Below are positions 40,292 through 47,600 of a DNA stretch of 64,000 nt, in pieces. This DNA is from Clostridiales bacterium (GTDB lineage: Bacteria > Bacillota > Clostridia > Peptostreptococcales > Anaerovoracaceae). The notes beneath the pieces were generated by a model. The model did not search any database. It saw only the letters and a list, made by a program, of their open reading frames with translations, and had not been told where the DNA came from. Made by a program: the position numbers and the translations under genes. Position 1 is the stretch's first letter, and the number at the start of each line of letters is the position of its first letter. The stretch covers positions 3,577 through 67,576 of the forward strand of contig SVCS01000001.1 of NCBI GenBank assembly GCA_015058205.1. The letters run 5' to 3'.

Positions 40292-42082
40292 ATGTACGTA
40301 GGACGAATCGAGAGACTGTTGGCCTACTATTCACCACTGCCCATGTGCATCGTGAACGCCCAGGGCAAGGTGACGAGAGCCAGCAGGAAGATTGCAGAAG
40401 TATTCAAATATGACGGGATCATCGACTACGATGTGTTCGCACTTACAGGGATTAAGATGCCCGAATTTGTGAAGGCAGCAGAAGAAGATGAACCTCTTTA
40501 CATCCAGAGAAATGAAAAGACATTCCGCATCGGTTGCGGTTTTCTGGGCGGCGGTACGGAAGAAGACGGAGAGGAAGGCCACTCGAATTCTTCTGTCATT
40601 CTCCACTTCACGGATGTGACGGAATACGAAGAGCTTAAGAAACGTTACAACGATGAAAAAGTCTACATGATGCTCGTCAATGTCGACAACTTCGATGAGC
40701 TTACATCCAGTGCAGATGAAATAGAGAGTACGATTACAGCAAACATCGATAAGCTTTTGAGAAACTGGGCTGCTGAGATGAACGCTATGATCGTCAGATA
40801 CAAAGACAATCTGTACGAGCTGGTGATTACGAATAAAAATTATGAGGCCCTTGTGGAAGACAAGTTCGCCATTCTGGATAAAGCCAGAAACATTGAGACG
40901 AACGCAGATTTTCCGGTTACGCTGAGCATCGGCTTGGGCATTGGCGGAAGCAGCCTTGTTGAACTGGATGACTTCGCGCAGGAAGCGCTGGACATGGCGC
41001 TGGGACGAGGCGGCGACCAGGCGGTCGTAAAGGATGGCAGCAGTTTTGAATACTACGGCGGAAGCACCCAAAGCGTTGAGAAGAGCAATAAGGGAAAATC
41101 CAGAATCATCGGACACGCCCTGGCAACACTGATGGAACAATCCTCGAGAATTTTCGTCATGGGACACAAGAATCCGGATATGGACAGCTTTGCGGCAGCA
41201 ATTGGTATTTCAAGACTTGCAAAGACCGTCGGTAAGGATGCGTATATTATCCTTGGGGAATACAATGAGACCATGATCGACATGGTTGCAGATGCGAAGA
41301 AAACCGGCGACTATGAGTTCGTAACCGGCGAGCGTGCTCTCGGTCTGGTAGAAGAGAACTCACTGGTCGTTGTTGTGGATACACACAGACGGATGCTGGT
41401 CGAGTCCATTGAACTGGTCGACCAGGTGGAGCGCCTTGCAATCATCGACCACCACAGGAAGGCAGAGGATGTTTTGACGAACCCGACACTTTCCTATCTG
41501 GAGTCCTATGCTTCATCAGCTTCTGAACTGGTGACGGAAATTCTCCAGTACAGATTAGATAAGAAAGTTCTTTCAAGGTATGAAGCGGATGTACTCATGG
41601 CAGGCATCATGCTCGATACGAACAGATTCGCCGTTAAAGCCGGCGTCAGGACCTTCGAAGCGGCGTCATGGCTGAGAAGAGCGGGCGCGGATCTCTCAAG
41701 AGTCAGACGTTACTTCCAGGAATCACCGGACAGCTTTATCAACAGAGCGAACGGTATTGTGAACGCAAGAATTCTGGAAGATGGAATCGCTATGTCCATC
41801 TGCGAAGGACATTCCATCAACACACAGATCATCAACTCCCAGGTTGCAGATGAACTGCTCACCATTAAGGGCACAACAGCAAGCTTCGTTGCAGGCAGGA
41901 ACGAAGAAGGGCAGACTGTGGTCAGCGCCAGATCTCTTGGCAACATGAATGTGCAGACCATTATGGAACATTTCGGAGGCGGCGGGCACATGAACACCGC
42001 GGGAACGAAGACAGATCTTTCGCCGGAGGAAATCCTGGCGGAAATAGAAGAATACATCAAAACCACAGAATCAACACAATAG
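40292..42082 (+). CDS. gdpP: GdpP/YybT-like DHH-DHHA1 cyclic-di-AMP phosphodiesterase, without N-terminal TM region
   Basis: PAS-like N-terminus, degenerate GGDEF-like region, FVMGHKNPDMDSFAAAIG, VVVDTHRRMLVES, IIDHHRKAED, GGGGHMNTAGT; next to rplI and dnaB. Confidence 0.88.
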   Translation: MYVGRIERLLAYYSPLPMCIVNAQGKVTRASRKIAEVFKYDGIIDYDVFALTGIKMPEFVKAAEEDEPLYIQRNEKTFRIGCGFLGGGTEEDGEEGHSNSSVILHFTDVTEYEELKKRYNDEKVYMMLVNVDNFDELTSSADEIESTITANIDKLLRNWAAEMNAMIVRYKDNLYELVITNKNYEALVEDKFAILDKARNIETNADFPVTLSIGLGIGGSSLVELDDFAQEALDMALGRGGDQAVVKDGSSFEYYGGSTQSVEKSNKGKSRIIGHALATLMEQSSRIFVMGHKNPDMDSFAAAIGISRLAKTVGKDAYIILGEYNETMIDMVADAKKTGDYEFVTGERALGLVEENSLVVVVDTHRRMLVESIELVDQVERLAIIDHHRKAEDVLTNPTLSYLESYASSASELVTEILQYRLDKKVLSRYEADVLMAGIMLDTNRFAVKAGVRTFEAASWLRRAGADLSRVRRYFQESPDSFINRANGIVNARILEDGIAMSICEGHSINTQIINSQVADELLTIKGTTASFVAGRNEEGQTVVSARSLGNMNVQTIMEHFGGGGHMNTAGTKTDLSPEEILAEIEEYIKTTESTQ

Positions 42083-42121
42083 AAGACTATAATAATATGA
42101 TGACCAGGCAGGAGGTTACAA

Positions 42122-42565
42122 ATGGTTGTTATCCTTTTAAAAGATGTTAAAGGAACAGGAAAAGCGGGCGATGTTGTGAAAGTCAGCGACGGCTACGCAC
42201 GCAACATGCTCATCCCGAAGGGACTGGCCAAAGAAGCGACACAGGGCAATGTGAGAAATCTCGAAAAACAGAAAGCGATTGCGGAAGAGAAAAGAGCCAT
42301 AGAAAAAGCAGCTGCACAGAAGAAGGCAGAAGAGCTCGAGAAGATCACACTGATCGTTAAGTCCAAAGGCGGCGAAAACGGCAAACTCTTCGGATCAGTT
42401 ACTTCCATGGATATTGCGAAAGCCCTGCAGGAACAGGAAGGAATCACGATCGACAAGAAAAAGATTGAGATACCGGGGCCGATCAAGCAGGCAGGAAAGA
42501 GCCATGCTGTGATCAAGTTGTATCAGGACGTTTCAGCAAAGATCACTGTTGAGGTGACAGTTTAA
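42122..42565 (+). CDS. rplI: 50S ribosomal protein L9
   Basis: [40 protein letters not shown]. Confidence 0.97.
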
Positions 42566-42586
42566 TTAATATAGAGGTAAGGAATT

Positions 42587-43927
42587 ATGGAAGAGAGAAT
42601 ACCTCCCCACAATCCTGACGCGGAGCGATCCGTATTAGGCGCGGCACTCTTATCTGAGGACGCGCTCTTTGACGTTGTAGAAGTCGTAAAACCTGAGGAT
42701 TTTTATGATCCGAACCACAAAGAGATTTTCAGCGTCATCTATGAACTGAATAAAAAGAACGCGCCGGTCGATGCGCTGACAGTATCAGAGGAACTGGACA
42801 AACGCGGCAGCCTCGAAATGGTCGGCGGAAGAGCATATGTGGCCGGACTGTCATCATCGACGCCAACGACAGCAAATGCTGGAGAATACGCCAAGATCGT
42901 TGCAGAGAAAGCATCCATCAGGCGGTTGATTGCAAAAGCAGACGACATTGTTGTCAAAGGTTACGACAAGAGCATGGATGCCGGTCAGCTGTTGGATTAT
43001 GCCGAGAATGGAATCTTCGAAATCTCGCAGGAACGGCAGAAGGGCGCGTTTGTACCGCTTAAGGATGTGCTCATCAGCAACATCGATGCAATCGACAAAG
43101 CGTCAAAGCTGAAAGATGGACTGACTGGCGTGACAACGGGATTCAGAGATCTGGATGCGAAGACATCAGGTCTGCAGAAGTCAGAGTTGATCATTCTGGC
43201 AGCAAGACCTGCCATGGGTAAGACTGCATTCGCGCTTTCTCTTGCGTTGAATGCAGCAGTGAAAGGCGGCGCATCCGTCATGGTCTTCAGCATGGAAATG
43301 TCAAAGGAAGCTCTGGGACAGAGACTGTTGGCAATGGAGTCAAAAGTTGAGATGCAGAAGCTCAAGACAGGAAGACTGGAACGGCGCGACTGGGATGATG
43401 TGAACATCGCGTTGGAAGTGCTGTCCGGAGCGAACATCTTTATCGATGATACCGCCGGCATCAGCATCATGGAAATGAAGAGCAAGTGCAGAAGACTCAA
43501 GGCAGAGAAAAAACTGGATCTCGTCGTGATCGACTATCTCCAGCTCATGAATCCGGAAGGAAGATCCCTTGAATCACGTACGCAGGAAATTTCCGTCATC
43601 TCGCGTAATCTGAAACTGCTGGCGAGAGAGCTGGACTGTCCTGTCTTGGTACTTTCACAGCTTTCCAGAAATCCAGAGCAGAGAACAGACCACAGACCGA
43701 TGCTTTCAGACCTGAGAGATTCCGGATCCATTGAACAGGATGCAGATATTGTTCTCTTCCTTTACAGAGACGAGTATTACAACGAAGACACTGACGCCCC
43801 TGGCGAATGTGAAGTCATCATCGCCAAGCAGAGAAGCGGTCCGACAGGTACCGTTAAGGTCGCATGGCTCGATAAGATCACTAAGTTTGTAGACAGCGCT
43901 GGAAGCGGAAACTTCAGCGGATTCTAA
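42587..43927 (+). CDS. dnaB: Replicative DNA helicase DnaB (B. subtilis DnaC)
   Basis: PPHNPDAERSVLGAALL; ILAARPAMGKTAFALSLALNAA; DLRDSGSIEQDADIVLFLYRD. Confidence 0.97.
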   Translation: MEERIPPHNPDAERSVLGAALLSEDALFDVVEVVKPEDFYDPNHKEIFSVIYELNKKNAPVDALTVSEELDKRGSLEMVGGRAYVAGLSSSTPTTANAGEYAKIVAEKASIRRLIAKADDIVVKGYDKSMDAGQLLDYAENGIFEISQERQKGAFVPLKDVLISNIDAIDKASKLKDGLTGVTTGFRDLDAKTSGLQKSELIILAARPAMGKTAFALSLALNAAVKGGASVMVFSMEMSKEALGQRLLAMESKVEMQKLKTGRLERRDWDDVNIALEVLSGANIFIDDTAGISIMEMKSKCRRLKAEKKLDLVVIDYLQLMNPEGRSLESRTQEISVISRNLKLLARELDCPVLVLSQLSRNPEQRTDHRPMLSDLRDSGSIEQDADIVLFLYRDEYYNEDTDAPGECEVIIAKQRSGPTGTVKVAWLDKITKFVDSAGSGNFSGF

Positions 43928-43929
43928 AG

Positions 43930-45189
43930 ATGAGTTTTTACAGAGACAAGACAAAAGATTATTTTCTCCTTGATACCAAGGTAGAGAATATGTTCATAAA
44001 TGAATACATGGTGTCCGCTCCGGGAGAATACGTCAAAGTGTATCTCTTCGCACTCATGTATGCAGAGCTGGAAGTGGACTTCAGCAATGAAGACATCGCG
44101 AAACAGCTGTCCATGGATATCGAAGATGTCCTTAAGGCGTGGACCTACTGGGAGAAGATGGGCATCATTAAGAAAGTAAGAAAATCCGCGGACAATCCGC
44201 TGGATTATGATGTTGTATTTGTTCTGCTGAAAGACATGCTCTATGGAAGTCATGAAGAGACGCGCATCGTCTCCTCCGATCATGGAATCAACGCGCAGAT
44301 GGCGAATCAGGAATACAGAGCCATGTTTGACCGGATCGAGAAATCTTTTGGACGCGTCATAAGCGGAACAGAAATGAGCGAAGTACTCTCCTGGATCAAC
44401 GATTTCGAAATCGAACCGGAATTTGTTGCCTTTGCAGTAGAGTACTGCGCCAGGAAAAAGAAAAAGACAGTCAAATACGTTGAGGCCGTGATCAGAAACT
44501 GGATCAGCGAGGGGCACAGAACTGTCGAGGACATCCAGCAGCACATCGGTCATATGGAGGAGCGTTCCGCAGATTACAGAAGAATATTCAGAGCACTCGG
44601 ATGGAGCAGAAACTGGACCGAAGAAGAAAAACGCATTATGGATGCGTGGTTCGACAAAATGGGATTCAGCATTGATGCAATCCTGGATGCATGCAGCAAA
44701 ACGACCGGAATATCGAATCCGAACATCAACTACATAAACAAGGTACTCACAAGCTGGTTTGAAGAAGGCGGAAAGAAAGCTGCTGCCGGCGAAGTGAGTG
44801 GTGCTGACATCAACCGATACTATGAACTTCTTAGAGCAAAGGAAGAACGGGAAGCAGCTCAGCGCCGTGAGGAAGTATACAGCAGACTGCCTCAGATTAA
44901 GGAAATAGATGAAGAAGAAAGCAGACTCGGGGCCAGCCTTTCCAGAATACTGGTGTCCGACCGCGTAGATAAAAAAGAAGCAATCGAACAAATCAGAGAA
45001 CAGATAGACGAAATGAGCGCACAGAGGGCGTTCCTGATGACGGACAACGGATTTGAACTGGACTATATGGACATCAAATACGAATGCCCGGACTGCAAAG
45101 ATACAGGAAAGCTTGAAACAGGAGAAAGGTGCCCATGCCACAGGGAAATCACCCAGCAGAAAATAGAAGCACTGCAGAAAACAGAATAG
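43930..45189 (+). CDS. DnaD-domain replication protein with C-terminal DnaC/DnaI-type N-terminal zinc module
   Basis: DnaD-like wHTH/helical domains (two repeats: FGRVISGTEMSEVLSWINDFE.., WTEEEKRIMDAWFDKMGF..SIDAILDACSKTTG) plus C-terminal FLMTDNGFELDYMDIKYECPDCKDTGKLETGERCPCHREI. Confidence 0.8.
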   Translation: MSFYRDKTKDYFLLDTKVENMFINEYMVSAPGEYVKVYLFALMYAELEVDFSNEDIAKQLSMDIEDVLKAWTYWEKMGIIKKVRKSADNPLDYDVVFVLLKDMLYGSHEETRIVSSDHGINAQMANQEYRAMFDRIEKSFGRVISGTEMSEVLSWINDFEIEPEFVAFAVEYCARKKKKTVKYVEAVIRNWISEGHRTVEDIQQHIGHMEERSADYRRIFRALGWSRNWTEEEKRIMDAWFDKMGFSIDAILDACSKTTGISNPNINYINKVLTSWFEEGGKKAAAGEVSGADINRYYELLRAKEEREAAQRREEVYSRLPQIKEIDEEESRLGASLSRILVSDRVDKKEAIEQIREQIDEMSAQRAFLMTDNGFELDYMDIKYECPDCKDTGKLETGERCPCHREITQQKIEALQKTE

Positions 45190-47600
45190 ATAAAGAAAAC
45201 GCCGGCCAGAAAGATACCGTCAAAAAAGCCTATAATGACGTGCAGACTTTGAAGGAGCAGATCGAGAAGCTCAAGGCACAGGCAGACAAATTGATCAGCA
45301 CCCCTGCAGCACCTGCCGATCAGGCAGAAGAGGTAAGGGTTTCTTCTGATGCCAAAACTGCAATTGATTTTGAAGCGGCAAAAGCAGCAGAAGAAGTTGT
45401 TCGGAAGCAGGCCGAAAAGGACCTTTCCGAGACTGCAGAGAGCATGCGCCGCAAAAGAGAAGAGCGTCAAGCGAAGATCCAGGAAGCAATCGAGAAAGAA
45501 AAACAAGCCAAACAGAGACTGGAACAAAAACGCGCGGAAGCCCTCGAAAAGCAGAAGCAGCTTCTTGAAGCGGAGAAAAGAGCCGCCAGAATGAGCAGCA
45601 ATCTGCGCAAAGCCGAGATTCAGTCAGAGCTCAACAAGACCCTTCATACGCAGGAAGAGAAACGGGCACAGCTCCGCAAGAAAAAAGAACTGGAGCGGCA
45701 GGAGAAACTCGAAGCGGCCATGGAAAGGGAGAAAGCAGAGCTCCAGAGAAAAGAAGAACTCAGGCTGGAAAGAGAGCAGGAAAAACTGATTCGTGCGCAG
45801 TTGGCTGAAAAGAGAAAGAACGAAGCCATCAGGCTCAGGAATGAAGAGCAGAAAGCCAAGAAAGAAATCGTAAGGCTGCAGGCAGAACAGCGTGAGAACC
45901 TCAGAAAACAGAAGGAAGAGCGCGCTGAAATCAGAAGACAGAGAAGACTTGCGAAGAAATCCGCCGAGTTGGGCGGAGGAATCGTTAACGTTCACGGAAC
46001 AACGATACAGACAGAAGTAAGACCGGTTCCGGCTTATTCCCTGAGAGAACTGTTAGGACTTTCAAAGCGAAAAGAAATCAATGAAGCCCGGACAGAGGAA
46101 GAAAGACAGCAGCTCTTTGAAGAAAATGAGCGGATCAGAAATGAAGCGTTAGCTACCGCGGCACAGCTCAGAGAGATCAGAAGGAAGAAGAGAAAAAACA
46201 GCAGAGTCTATAAGAAGCTAGAAGATATTTCCGCATTTTGCGACAGAAAGAAGAAACCGCTCCTGGTTGCCTTTGCTCTTATGCTGGTCGTTGCTGTCGG
46301 AACAGCAGGGCTGATCAATTACTTTACCGCATACGAATATTCCTACGGCGACAAGAAACTGGGATACGTCAAGAACAAGGATGATGTTCTGCAGATTACA
46401 GAGATGGTGCGGCATGCGCTGACGGAAGAGAAGGATATGTCTGTCGCCCTGGATCCGCGGAACGATATCAACTTTAAACGTGTCTTTACAGGAAACAAGG
46501 ACATCGTCATCGACTCACAGGATGGTGTGCTGCAGAGACTTTCTTATCTGGGAGATGTGAATGTCAAGGCTTATGGCATGTATATTGACGGCAAGAAAGT
46601 AGGAGCAGTGAAGGACAAGGATACTGCGGCACAGGTACTGCAGAGCATCCAGGACAAATACGCCAATCACGATGAAGGAACGGAACTCAATGAAGCGGTA
46701 ATCGTTGAAAATGTGGAATTCAGACAGAGTAATACGCCGATGAGCGATATTCTTACTACTGATGCTTTGGTGGAGAAACTCTGTACAGATACAGTCAAGG
46801 AAACAGTGCATACCGTTGAACGCGGCGAGACGCTGGACAGCATCGCAGAGGCACGGAATGTTTCCAAGGAAGAAATCATTGCGGACAATAACATTCTAAA
46901 CGACGAACAGCTTAAGGTAGGAAGCACCATTATCCTGAAAGAGACGGCTCCGTTGCTGACTGTCAGAATCACGGAGACGAGATCCTTCGAGGAGAAGACG
47001 GCATATAAGACCATCAAGAAAAAAGATGATGAGATGTATGAAGGCGACATTGAAGTTTCCCGCAAAGGAAAGAAGGGCTGCAGCCTCATCGTGAACAAGA
47101 CGGTTTCCATCAACGGCGAAGTCGTAGAAACTGATAATTTGAAAAATGAAGTCGAAAAAGAACCTGTTGATAAGATTGTTCTGGTTGGTGTTAAGGAAAG
47201 ACCACCGACAACGGGAACAGGAACATTCATCTGGCCGGCATATGATGGAACCTATACTGTGACATCAGAATTCAAATGGAGATGGGGCCGCCAGCATGAA
47301 GGAATCGACATGGGCTGCAGAACCGGAAACGATGTTCTTGCTTCCGATGGTGGAACGGTTATCCACGCAGGCCCGATGGGCGGTTACGGAAATCTGGTCA
47401 TCATAGACCACGAGAATGGAATAGAAACCTACTATGCACATAATAGCTCGCTTCTGGTCAGTCGCGGTGACAAGGTCTTCCAGGGACAGCACATTGCAGA
47501 AGCCGGAAACACAGGACACAGCTTCGGCAGTCACATACACTTCGGCGTAAAAGACAATGGAACATTCCGGAATCCGAGAAATTATCTTCCGGAAAAATAA
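45135..47600 (+). CDS. Cytoplasmic coiled-coil / single-TM / LysM / G5 / M23 metallopeptidase protein
   Basis: ~370-aa Lys/Glu/Arg/Gln-rich coiled coil, TM KKPLLVAFALMLVVAVGTAGLINYFTA, LysM HTVERGETLDSIAEARNVSKEEIIADNNILNDEQLKVGSTIILK, G5-like region, M23 HEGIDMG...SFGSHIHFGV. ATG 45135 chosen with RBS AGGAGAAAG. Confidence 0.88.
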   Translation: MPQGNHPAENRSTAENRIDKENAGQKDTVKKAYNDVQTLKEQIEKLKAQADKLISTPAAPADQAEEVRVSSDAKTAIDFEAAKAAEEVVRKQAEKDLSETAESMRRKREERQAKIQEAIEKEKQAKQRLEQKRAEALEKQKQLLEAEKRAARMSSNLRKAEIQSELNKTLHTQEEKRAQLRKKKELERQEKLEAAMEREKAELQRKEELRLEREQEKLIRAQLAEKRKNEAIRLRNEEQKAKKEIVRLQAEQRENLRKQKEERAEIRRQRRLAKKSAELGGGIVNVHGTTIQTEVRPVPAYSLRELLGLSKRKEINEARTEEERQQLFEENERIRNEALATAAQLREIRRKKRKNSRVYKKLEDISAFCDRKKKPLLVAFALMLVVAVGTAGLINYFTAYEYSYGDKKLGYVKNKDDVLQITEMVRHALTEEKDMSVALDPRNDINFKRVFTGNKDIVIDSQDGVLQRLSYLGDVNVKAYGMYIDGKKVGAVKDKDTAAQVLQSIQDKYANHDEGTELNEAVIVENVEFRQSNTPMSDILTTDALVEKLCTDTVKETVHTVERGETLDSIAEARNVSKEEIIADNNILNDEQLKVGSTIILKETAPLLTVRITETRSFEEKTAYKTIKKKDDEMYEGDIEVSRKGKKGCSLIVNKTVSINGEVVETDNLKNEVEKEPVDKIVLVGVKERPPTTGTGTFIWPAYDGTYTVTSEFKWRWGRQHEGIDMGCRTGNDVLASDGGTVIHAGPMGGYGNLVIIDHENGIETYYAHNSSLLVSRGDKVFQGQHIAEAGNTGHSFGSHIHFGVKDNGTFRNPRNYLPEK

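Follow-up and report, generated by a model that had tools for sequence, protein, structure and literature searches.

A DnaD protein joined to the N-terminal module of a DnaC/DnaI-type loader: a probable ATPase-free helicase loader in Clostridia

Introduction

How is the replicative helicase loaded in a genome in which the gene following dnaB encodes a DnaD-like protein that ends with the N-terminal part of a helicase loader, the ATPase part of that loader being absent from the locus? This question is raised by a locus within a 64,000-nucleotide stretch of DNA from a Clostridiales bacterium (contig SVCS01000001.1; the whole stretch is referred to below as the window). Bacterial helicase loaders are classed either as AAA+ proteins (DnaC/DnaI) or as ATP-independent (DciA), and the role of the DnaC/DnaI ATPase has so far been argued from mutants and truncations of Escherichia coli DnaC. 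A sequence-only reading of the locus saw in it either a two-in-one, ATPase-free loader for the adjacent DnaB or the outcome of an operon fusion in which the ATPase was deleted. The results presented below favor both descriptions, with a biochemical function that is presumptive.

Domain architecture of the fusion protein

The locus and the domain map of the fusion protein are as follows (positions in the window).

42587..43927, + strand: replicative helicase DnaB, 446 aa (Pfam DnaB_C, E 2e-109, and a DnaB N-terminal domain)
43930..45189, + strand: fusion of DnaD with a loader N-terminal module; ATG start, TAG stop, 419 aa, without an AAA+ domain
43987..44229, + strand: DDBH1-like winged-helix N-terminal region, residues ~20-100 (AlphaFold2 helices and strands; Foldseek match to 2v79)
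44326..44544, + strand: first DDBH2 (DnaD/DnaB_2) domain, residues 133-205 (PF07261, E 9e-31; PDB 2zc2, E 2e-6)
44575..44769, + strand: second DDBH2 domain, residues ~216-280, limits approximate (second PF07261 stretch; helices 231-242, 248-257 and 266-278)
44773..44802, + strand: flexible linker, residues 282-291 (pLDDT below 50 at 282-287)
44803..45147, + strand: loader N-terminal module, residues 292-406 (NF005304 positions 7-120 of 330, E 9.3e-27)
45085..45138, + strand: CxxC-x11-CxC zinc motif (invariant in alignments)
45085-45087, 45094-45096, 45130-45132 and 45136-45138, + strand: codons of C386, C389, C401 and C403, respectively

Only 2 bases separate the stop codon of dnaB from the ATG of the fusion gene, and this DnaB is presumably the client of the fusion protein. 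The two stretches matched by PF07261 (DnaB_2/DnaD) score 105.8 against a Pfam cut-off of 22 bits, and the N-terminal region is similar to the N-domain of Bacillus subtilis DnaD (2v79; Foldseek probability 0.93, TM 0.52 on the target, with a weak E-value); taken as a whole, residues 1-280 resemble 2v79 plus 2zc2. The linker that follows occupies the place of the C-terminal tail in separate DnaD proteins. The remainder of the protein aligns with the beginning of the NCBIfam model NF005304 (PRK06835, “ATP-binding protein”), which represents the Clostridial DnaC/DnaI-type loader and, in intact loaders, continues into the AAA+ domain; the E-value places this match far beyond chance. The identification of a DnaD-like protein that carries the CxxC-CxC zinc domain of a Clostridial loader, made earlier from the sequence alone, is thus borne out by both profiles, and the absence of a loader match in the C-terminal segment, which that reading had named as evidence against itself, is not what was found.

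The protein terminates 16 residues past the last zinc-type cysteine. A profile search detected no AAA+ ATPase domain (Walker A plus Walker B) in the open reading frame, and the next gene encodes an M23 peptidase with G5 and LysM domains, in agreement with the earlier claim that no AAA+ loader follows. The overlap of the two genes depends on the start codon of the latter (GTG at 45129, ATG at 45135, or later). In the AlphaFold2 model (21 homologues, mean pLDDT 81.5), the module consists of three long helices (291-319, 321-342 and 348-372), a cysteine-bearing loop and a final helix (403-418), the relative placement of the domains being uninterpretable at a pTM of 0.36.

The four cysteines, together with the motif DTG, are invariant in an alignment of 21 family members, and the cysteines are likewise invariant in 23 modules from four lineages and two other replication-type proteins. 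Among 112 distinct fusions, 110 keep the pattern CxxCx[DE]xG...CxC, and the remaining two retain all four cysteines.

Distribution of the fusion and the missing loader

The family of the window genome (f1, presumably the Anaerovoracaceae of GTDB, i.e., Family XIII) was searched in 149 genomes from 92 genera. The fusion was matched in 143 of these gut and rumen Clostridia, mostly over its full length, and in all 85 genomes with completeness of at least 90% and contamination of at most 5%; the carriers include Anaerovorax odorimutans SL.3.17, Emergencia timonensis, Sinanaerobacter chloroacetimidivorans, Clostridium aminobutyricum and Bacilliculturomica massiliensis. All of the named loci are fused (80/80), and an AAA+ loader ORF is present in the flanks of none (0/80). 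What could be taken for a local oddity is instead a family-wide feature that, as discussed below, evolved repeatedly.

A full loader above the model cut-off was found in none of the 149 f1 genomes, compared with 137 of the 144 genomes sampled from the rest of the order (completeness of at least 90%). Three of the seven exceptions belong to the sister family f9 and carry the same fusion; among the other four, three yielded no DnaD locus and one has a 79-aa DnaD frame, as at a contig end. By its own terms, the sequence-only reading would be contradicted if relatives normally had this architecture and encoded a complete DnaC at another locus: the first part holds throughout the family, but the second does not.

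The PF01695 (IstB/DnaC AAA+) profile was also run against 20 good f1 genomes. In 10 of them, all well assembled and including the single-contig G088 and G095, no IstB/DnaC-like AAA+ protein was found beyond DnaA (frames of ~450-490 aa) and weakly matched frames of ~320-370 or 500-850 aa, which we read as PhoH and as Clp or other P-loop proteins; one such match (L003) was read as PhoH adjoining YbeY. The remaining genomes contain sporadic loader-type proteins of 260-290 aa or IS21 helpers. The genome-wide search for another loader, suggested by the sequence-only reading, yielded nothing of the kind in G088 and G095, which rules out an assembly gap as the cause of the missing loader. In the genome of the window, the AAA+ matches are DnaA, PhoH-type proteins and a single mobile-element loader, namely a phage-type DnaC-like protein of 274-279 aa on contig C108; its gene and that of a phage DnaD-like protein (together L001:1390-2857) adjoin a tyrosine integrase gene. 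DciA (PF05258) was detected in none of 24 genomes, that of the window included, with positive controls matched in 7. A highly diverged AAA+ loader could have been missed by the profiles. Nothing unusual was seen in the DnaB linker-helix region of f1, although the Ser/Gly determinant described in PMC9912922 was not confidently mapped.

Origin by fusion of adjacent genes

Every outgroup locus examined but one has an unfused dnaD and, directly after it, a loader gene that encodes the N-module and the AAA+ domain; in the exception (L249), the 4 kb of retrieved sequence showed no loader. The gene order in several outgroups is M23 peptidase (-), dnaD (+), dnaC (+), ..., dnaB (-), and in the sister family f9 it is M23 (-), fusion (+), ..., dnaB (-) (L113 compared with L114-L118), so that the f9 fusion (44% identity) occupies precisely the position of dnaD-dnaC. 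The comparison of synteny in relatives, also suggested earlier, shows that an ancestral dnaD-dnaC pair became one gene with loss of the AAA+ part of dnaC. This part was replaced neither by a second recognizable resident loader nor by DciA.

A full-length DnaD-DnaC fusion suggested by a 686-aa open frame in G278 was rejected, there being two stop codons between the genes in the DNA. Each of the other merged dnaD-dnaC frames retrieved also resolves into two ORFs, and a DnaD-module-AAA+ protein was not seen among the loci inspected.

In the window, gdpP, rplI, dnaB, the fusion gene and the M23 peptidase gene (40292-47600) are all encoded on one strand, and dnaA lies ~19 kb upstream of this block; unlike in the window, the dnaD-dnaC block (or the f9 fusion) is divergent from dnaB in the sister family and several outgroups. 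We interpret the single-strand order as a rearrangement near the origin.

Repeated origin of the fused state

To look for convergence, the class was scanned with the fusion profile, selected genomes were scanned for loaders, and the DNA was inspected. Beyond f1 and f9, the fused state without AAA+ was found in three groups. In f44, it is present in all 4 genomes, which represent 3 genera (~401-411 aa, ~25% identical to the window protein). In f71, it is found in five genomes (~560-573 aa), and a scan of the f71 genome G496 for a full loader found none. In f15, the fusions of 609-613 aa encoded by G389 and G527 belong to genus g171, the other members of which (G309, G342, G448 and G554) have a separate DnaD of ~480 aa and an AAA+ loader of 301-304 aa with Walker A; no full loader was detected in G389. 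The module is matched by NF005304 in each of these groups (3e-18 in f44, 3e-9 in f71 and 1e-7 in f15).

On quick single-gene DnaD trees of ~280 columns, the fused state requires 4-5 changes (4 in one tree and 5 in another). Monophyly of all fusions was rejected (AU p 9e-46), as was a single origin of f1, f9 and f44 (AU p 1e-5; the underlying tree had wrong ORFs in some f71 and f15 rows, none of them in the constrained group), and a single origin of f71 and f15 was rejected more weakly (AU p 0.012). Furthermore, the modules of G389 and G527 are nearest, after each other, to the loaders of their own congeners (45-47% identity to the closest), as expected of a local fusion. Judging from these sequence comparisons, the AAA+-less DnaD-module architecture evidently arose at least four times (f1 with f9, f44, f71 and f15).

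Two observations from these scans stand apart. The f71 genome G464 encodes a 472-aa DnaD (L275:6693-8123) with neither the module nor a detectable loader; the sequence RERSLEILKKLYDESDGD at its C terminus possibly represents a truncated module, and the genome may be without any known loader. The f47 genomes (G354, G377 and others) gave no DnaD match in the class scan, and the two that were checked have only a weak loader-like match of 322-325 aa, such that the set of initiation proteins may differ in this family.

The module on other proteins

Two f71 genomes, in which DnaD is fused as well, encode a second copy of the module on another replication-type protein, again without AAA+. In G569, the zinc module forms the C terminus of a DUF6291 protein (L278:2274-3296), and in G625, that of an HTH_36/phage replication-initiator-like protein (L279:3091-4233); the families of these two proteins suggest that they reside on mobile elements. 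In the f1 genomes scanned for extra modules, no match other than the DnaD fusion has the zinc motif, and the one additional weak match each in G088 and G140, which lacks the zinc part, is taken for chance. No relatives of the module were found in the viral contigs searched.

The tail of DnaD is lost with the motor

Separate Clostridial DnaDs (e.g., L076 and L119) have a recognizable tail within the last 20-50 residues, (K)FHNFxQ....Y[ST]xEELExIL, in the order to which f1 belongs typically KFHNFxQxxxxYSxEELExIL. The tail is too short for a profile HMM and was scored by a simple pattern in the last 35 residues with a shuffle control: the pattern is present in 33 of 52 separate DnaDs, 0 of 112 fusions and 0.9% of shuffles. 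A relic of a tail is seen in the fused f15 proteins, where a DnaD-tail-like peptide follows the zinc module (L235:6098-7939 in G389 and L277:4205-6055 in G527): G389 ends with IQSIDEVQL, and the separate DnaDs of its relatives with IQSIDEIEL or IQSIDEVEL, a pattern suggestive of an insertion of the module ahead of the final DnaD residues.

The conserved tail is a candidate short linear motif for docking to the AAA+ domain of the loader. In B. subtilis, the C-terminal tail of DnaB, a DnaD-related protein, binds the AAA+ domain of DnaI, the N-domain of which binds the helicase (PMC13326638). By analogy with this docking, we propose that a covalent joint replaced the docking pair; such a replacement would account for the joint loss of the tail and the AAA+ domain.

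Proposed mechanism and alternatives

We propose that the fusion is very probably the chromosomal helicase loader of its family, ATPase-free and tethered to DnaD, from which the AAA+ motor has been removed; helicase binding and loading would be its presumptive activities. The DnaD part would be recruited to the origin via DnaA and single-stranded DNA, both of which are known to be bound by B. subtilis DnaD (PMC10201434, PMC13326638), and a DnaD oligomer would present several N-modules, which might bind the DnaB ring and either open it or keep it in place for assembly, allowing DNA to enter. Loading at the DnaA-melted oriC would then proceed without ATP hydrolysis by the fusion, with ATP use confined to DnaA and the helicase itself. 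The oligomer could provide the multivalency that in DnaC is given by the AAA+ spiral, and the covalent joint would stand in for the docking of a DnaD/DnaB-type tail on the loader AAA+ domain.

The occurrence of at least four separate origins suggests that the AAA+ motor is dispensable, and an ATPase-free loader is made plausible by the isolated helicase-binding domain (HBD) of E. coli DnaC, which loads DnaB on circular single-stranded DNA at about half the wild-type efficiency, stimulates unwinding nearly like full DnaC and has been termed an independent helicase-activating element; in vivo, the ATPase is required for full function of DnaC (PMC8213410). Walker A mutants of the Clostridioides difficile loader CD3654 bind the helicase and appear to load it, and fail to restrain it (PMC5204125). 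A search of solved structures, the DnaC/DnaI N-domains in PDB included, gave chance matches only and detected no sequence relative of the Clostridial N-module; the intact C. difficile-type loader, in turn, is similar to DnaC/DnaI in the AAA+ domain only. Helicase binding is therefore assigned to the module presumptively, from the position of this domain and from work on the complete C. difficile loader.

The alternative that survives best, unlikely as we consider it, is that the fusion only recruits the helicase to DnaA and oriC, and that ATP-using ring opening falls to another protein acting in trans, either an ATPase that is diverged or non-homologous or DnaA through its own AAA+ domain. Such a division of labor would be compatible with the halved loading by the isolated HBD, with the repeated matching in our searches of DnaA, an initiator-clade AAA+ protein, and with the proposal, as cited in PMC10201434, that the AAA+ domain of Aquifex DnaC contacts DnaA. 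However, no candidate AAA+ protein is present in the single-contig genomes, and each of the four lineages with the loss would require the same hidden partner.

We give very little credence to the module being a regulatory remnant, e.g., a helicase brake, with DnaB loading spontaneously or assembling as monomers round DNA, loader-free. DnaI-type systems have been described as ring-makers (PMC9912922), and the C. difficile loader does inhibit its helicase in vitro (PMC5204125), but the module has been repeatedly fused to DnaD rather than lost and is also joined to the two other replication-type proteins of f71, which argues for a positive recruiting element, and the zinc motif is kept as strictly as described above. 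Just as improbable is that phage-type AAA+ loaders such as that on C108, which some f1 genomes do have, serve the chromosome and leave the fusion an accessory, given that they are sporadic (absent from G095 and G136 and present in their respective congeners G011 and G083), that the one in the window genome adjoins an integrase and a phage DnaD-like protein, and that the ten well-assembled f1 genomes have none.

Extending the reading of the fusion as an ATPase-free, DnaD-tethered loader, we consider it likely that natural ATPase-free loaders were derived from DnaC/DnaI at least four times by joining of the N-module to DnaD, that the module acts as a portable tag for helicase recruitment, acquired also by initiators of apparent mobile elements, and that the AAA+ domain serves mainly in docking or licensing and becomes superfluous once the module is tethered. 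Evolution thus appears to have repeated the motor-removal experiment on essential chromosomal loaders, even within one genus, g171, where the split makes near-identical separate and fused proteins directly comparable. The fusion offers a minimal loader for reconstitution, and would account for the replication of a large Clostridial family with neither a complete DnaC/DnaI nor DciA.

Comparison with known systems

A small number of species without both dciA and dnaC/I has been reported by Brezellec et al. (PMC5109545). In the open-access papers searched, no description of a DnaD-loader fusion or of a natural AAA+-less DnaC/DnaI loader was found.

The fusion shares with the Clostridial loader (PRK06835/NF005304; C. 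difficile CD3654) the N-module, the CxxC..CxC motif and the location beside dnaD (PMC5204125); it differs in that the entire AAA+ domain is missing and the module, which in loaders is N-terminal, forms the C-terminal end of a DnaD protein. Its residues 1-280, with two DDBH2 domains, correspond to Clostridial DnaD (C. difficile CD3653; DDBH1-DDBH2-DDBH2), in which the place of the loader module is taken by a C-terminal tail of the FHNF...Y[ST]xEELE type. With DciA, also an ATPase-free helicase loader (PMC8213410, PMC5109545), the fusion would share the mode of loading; it has no sequence relation to DciA, derives from DnaC/DnaI and DnaD, and occurs where the DciA domain is absent (the 24 genomes above). 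A further parallel is the isolated HBD of E. coli DnaC, likewise a loader half without AAA+ that loads DnaB (PMC8213410), although the HBD is an artificial truncation made in the laboratory and its N-domain is unrelated in sequence, whereas the fusion is natural, chromosomal and tethered to DnaD. The domains themselves are known; their combination would represent a natural loader type outside the division into AAA+ loaders and DciA.
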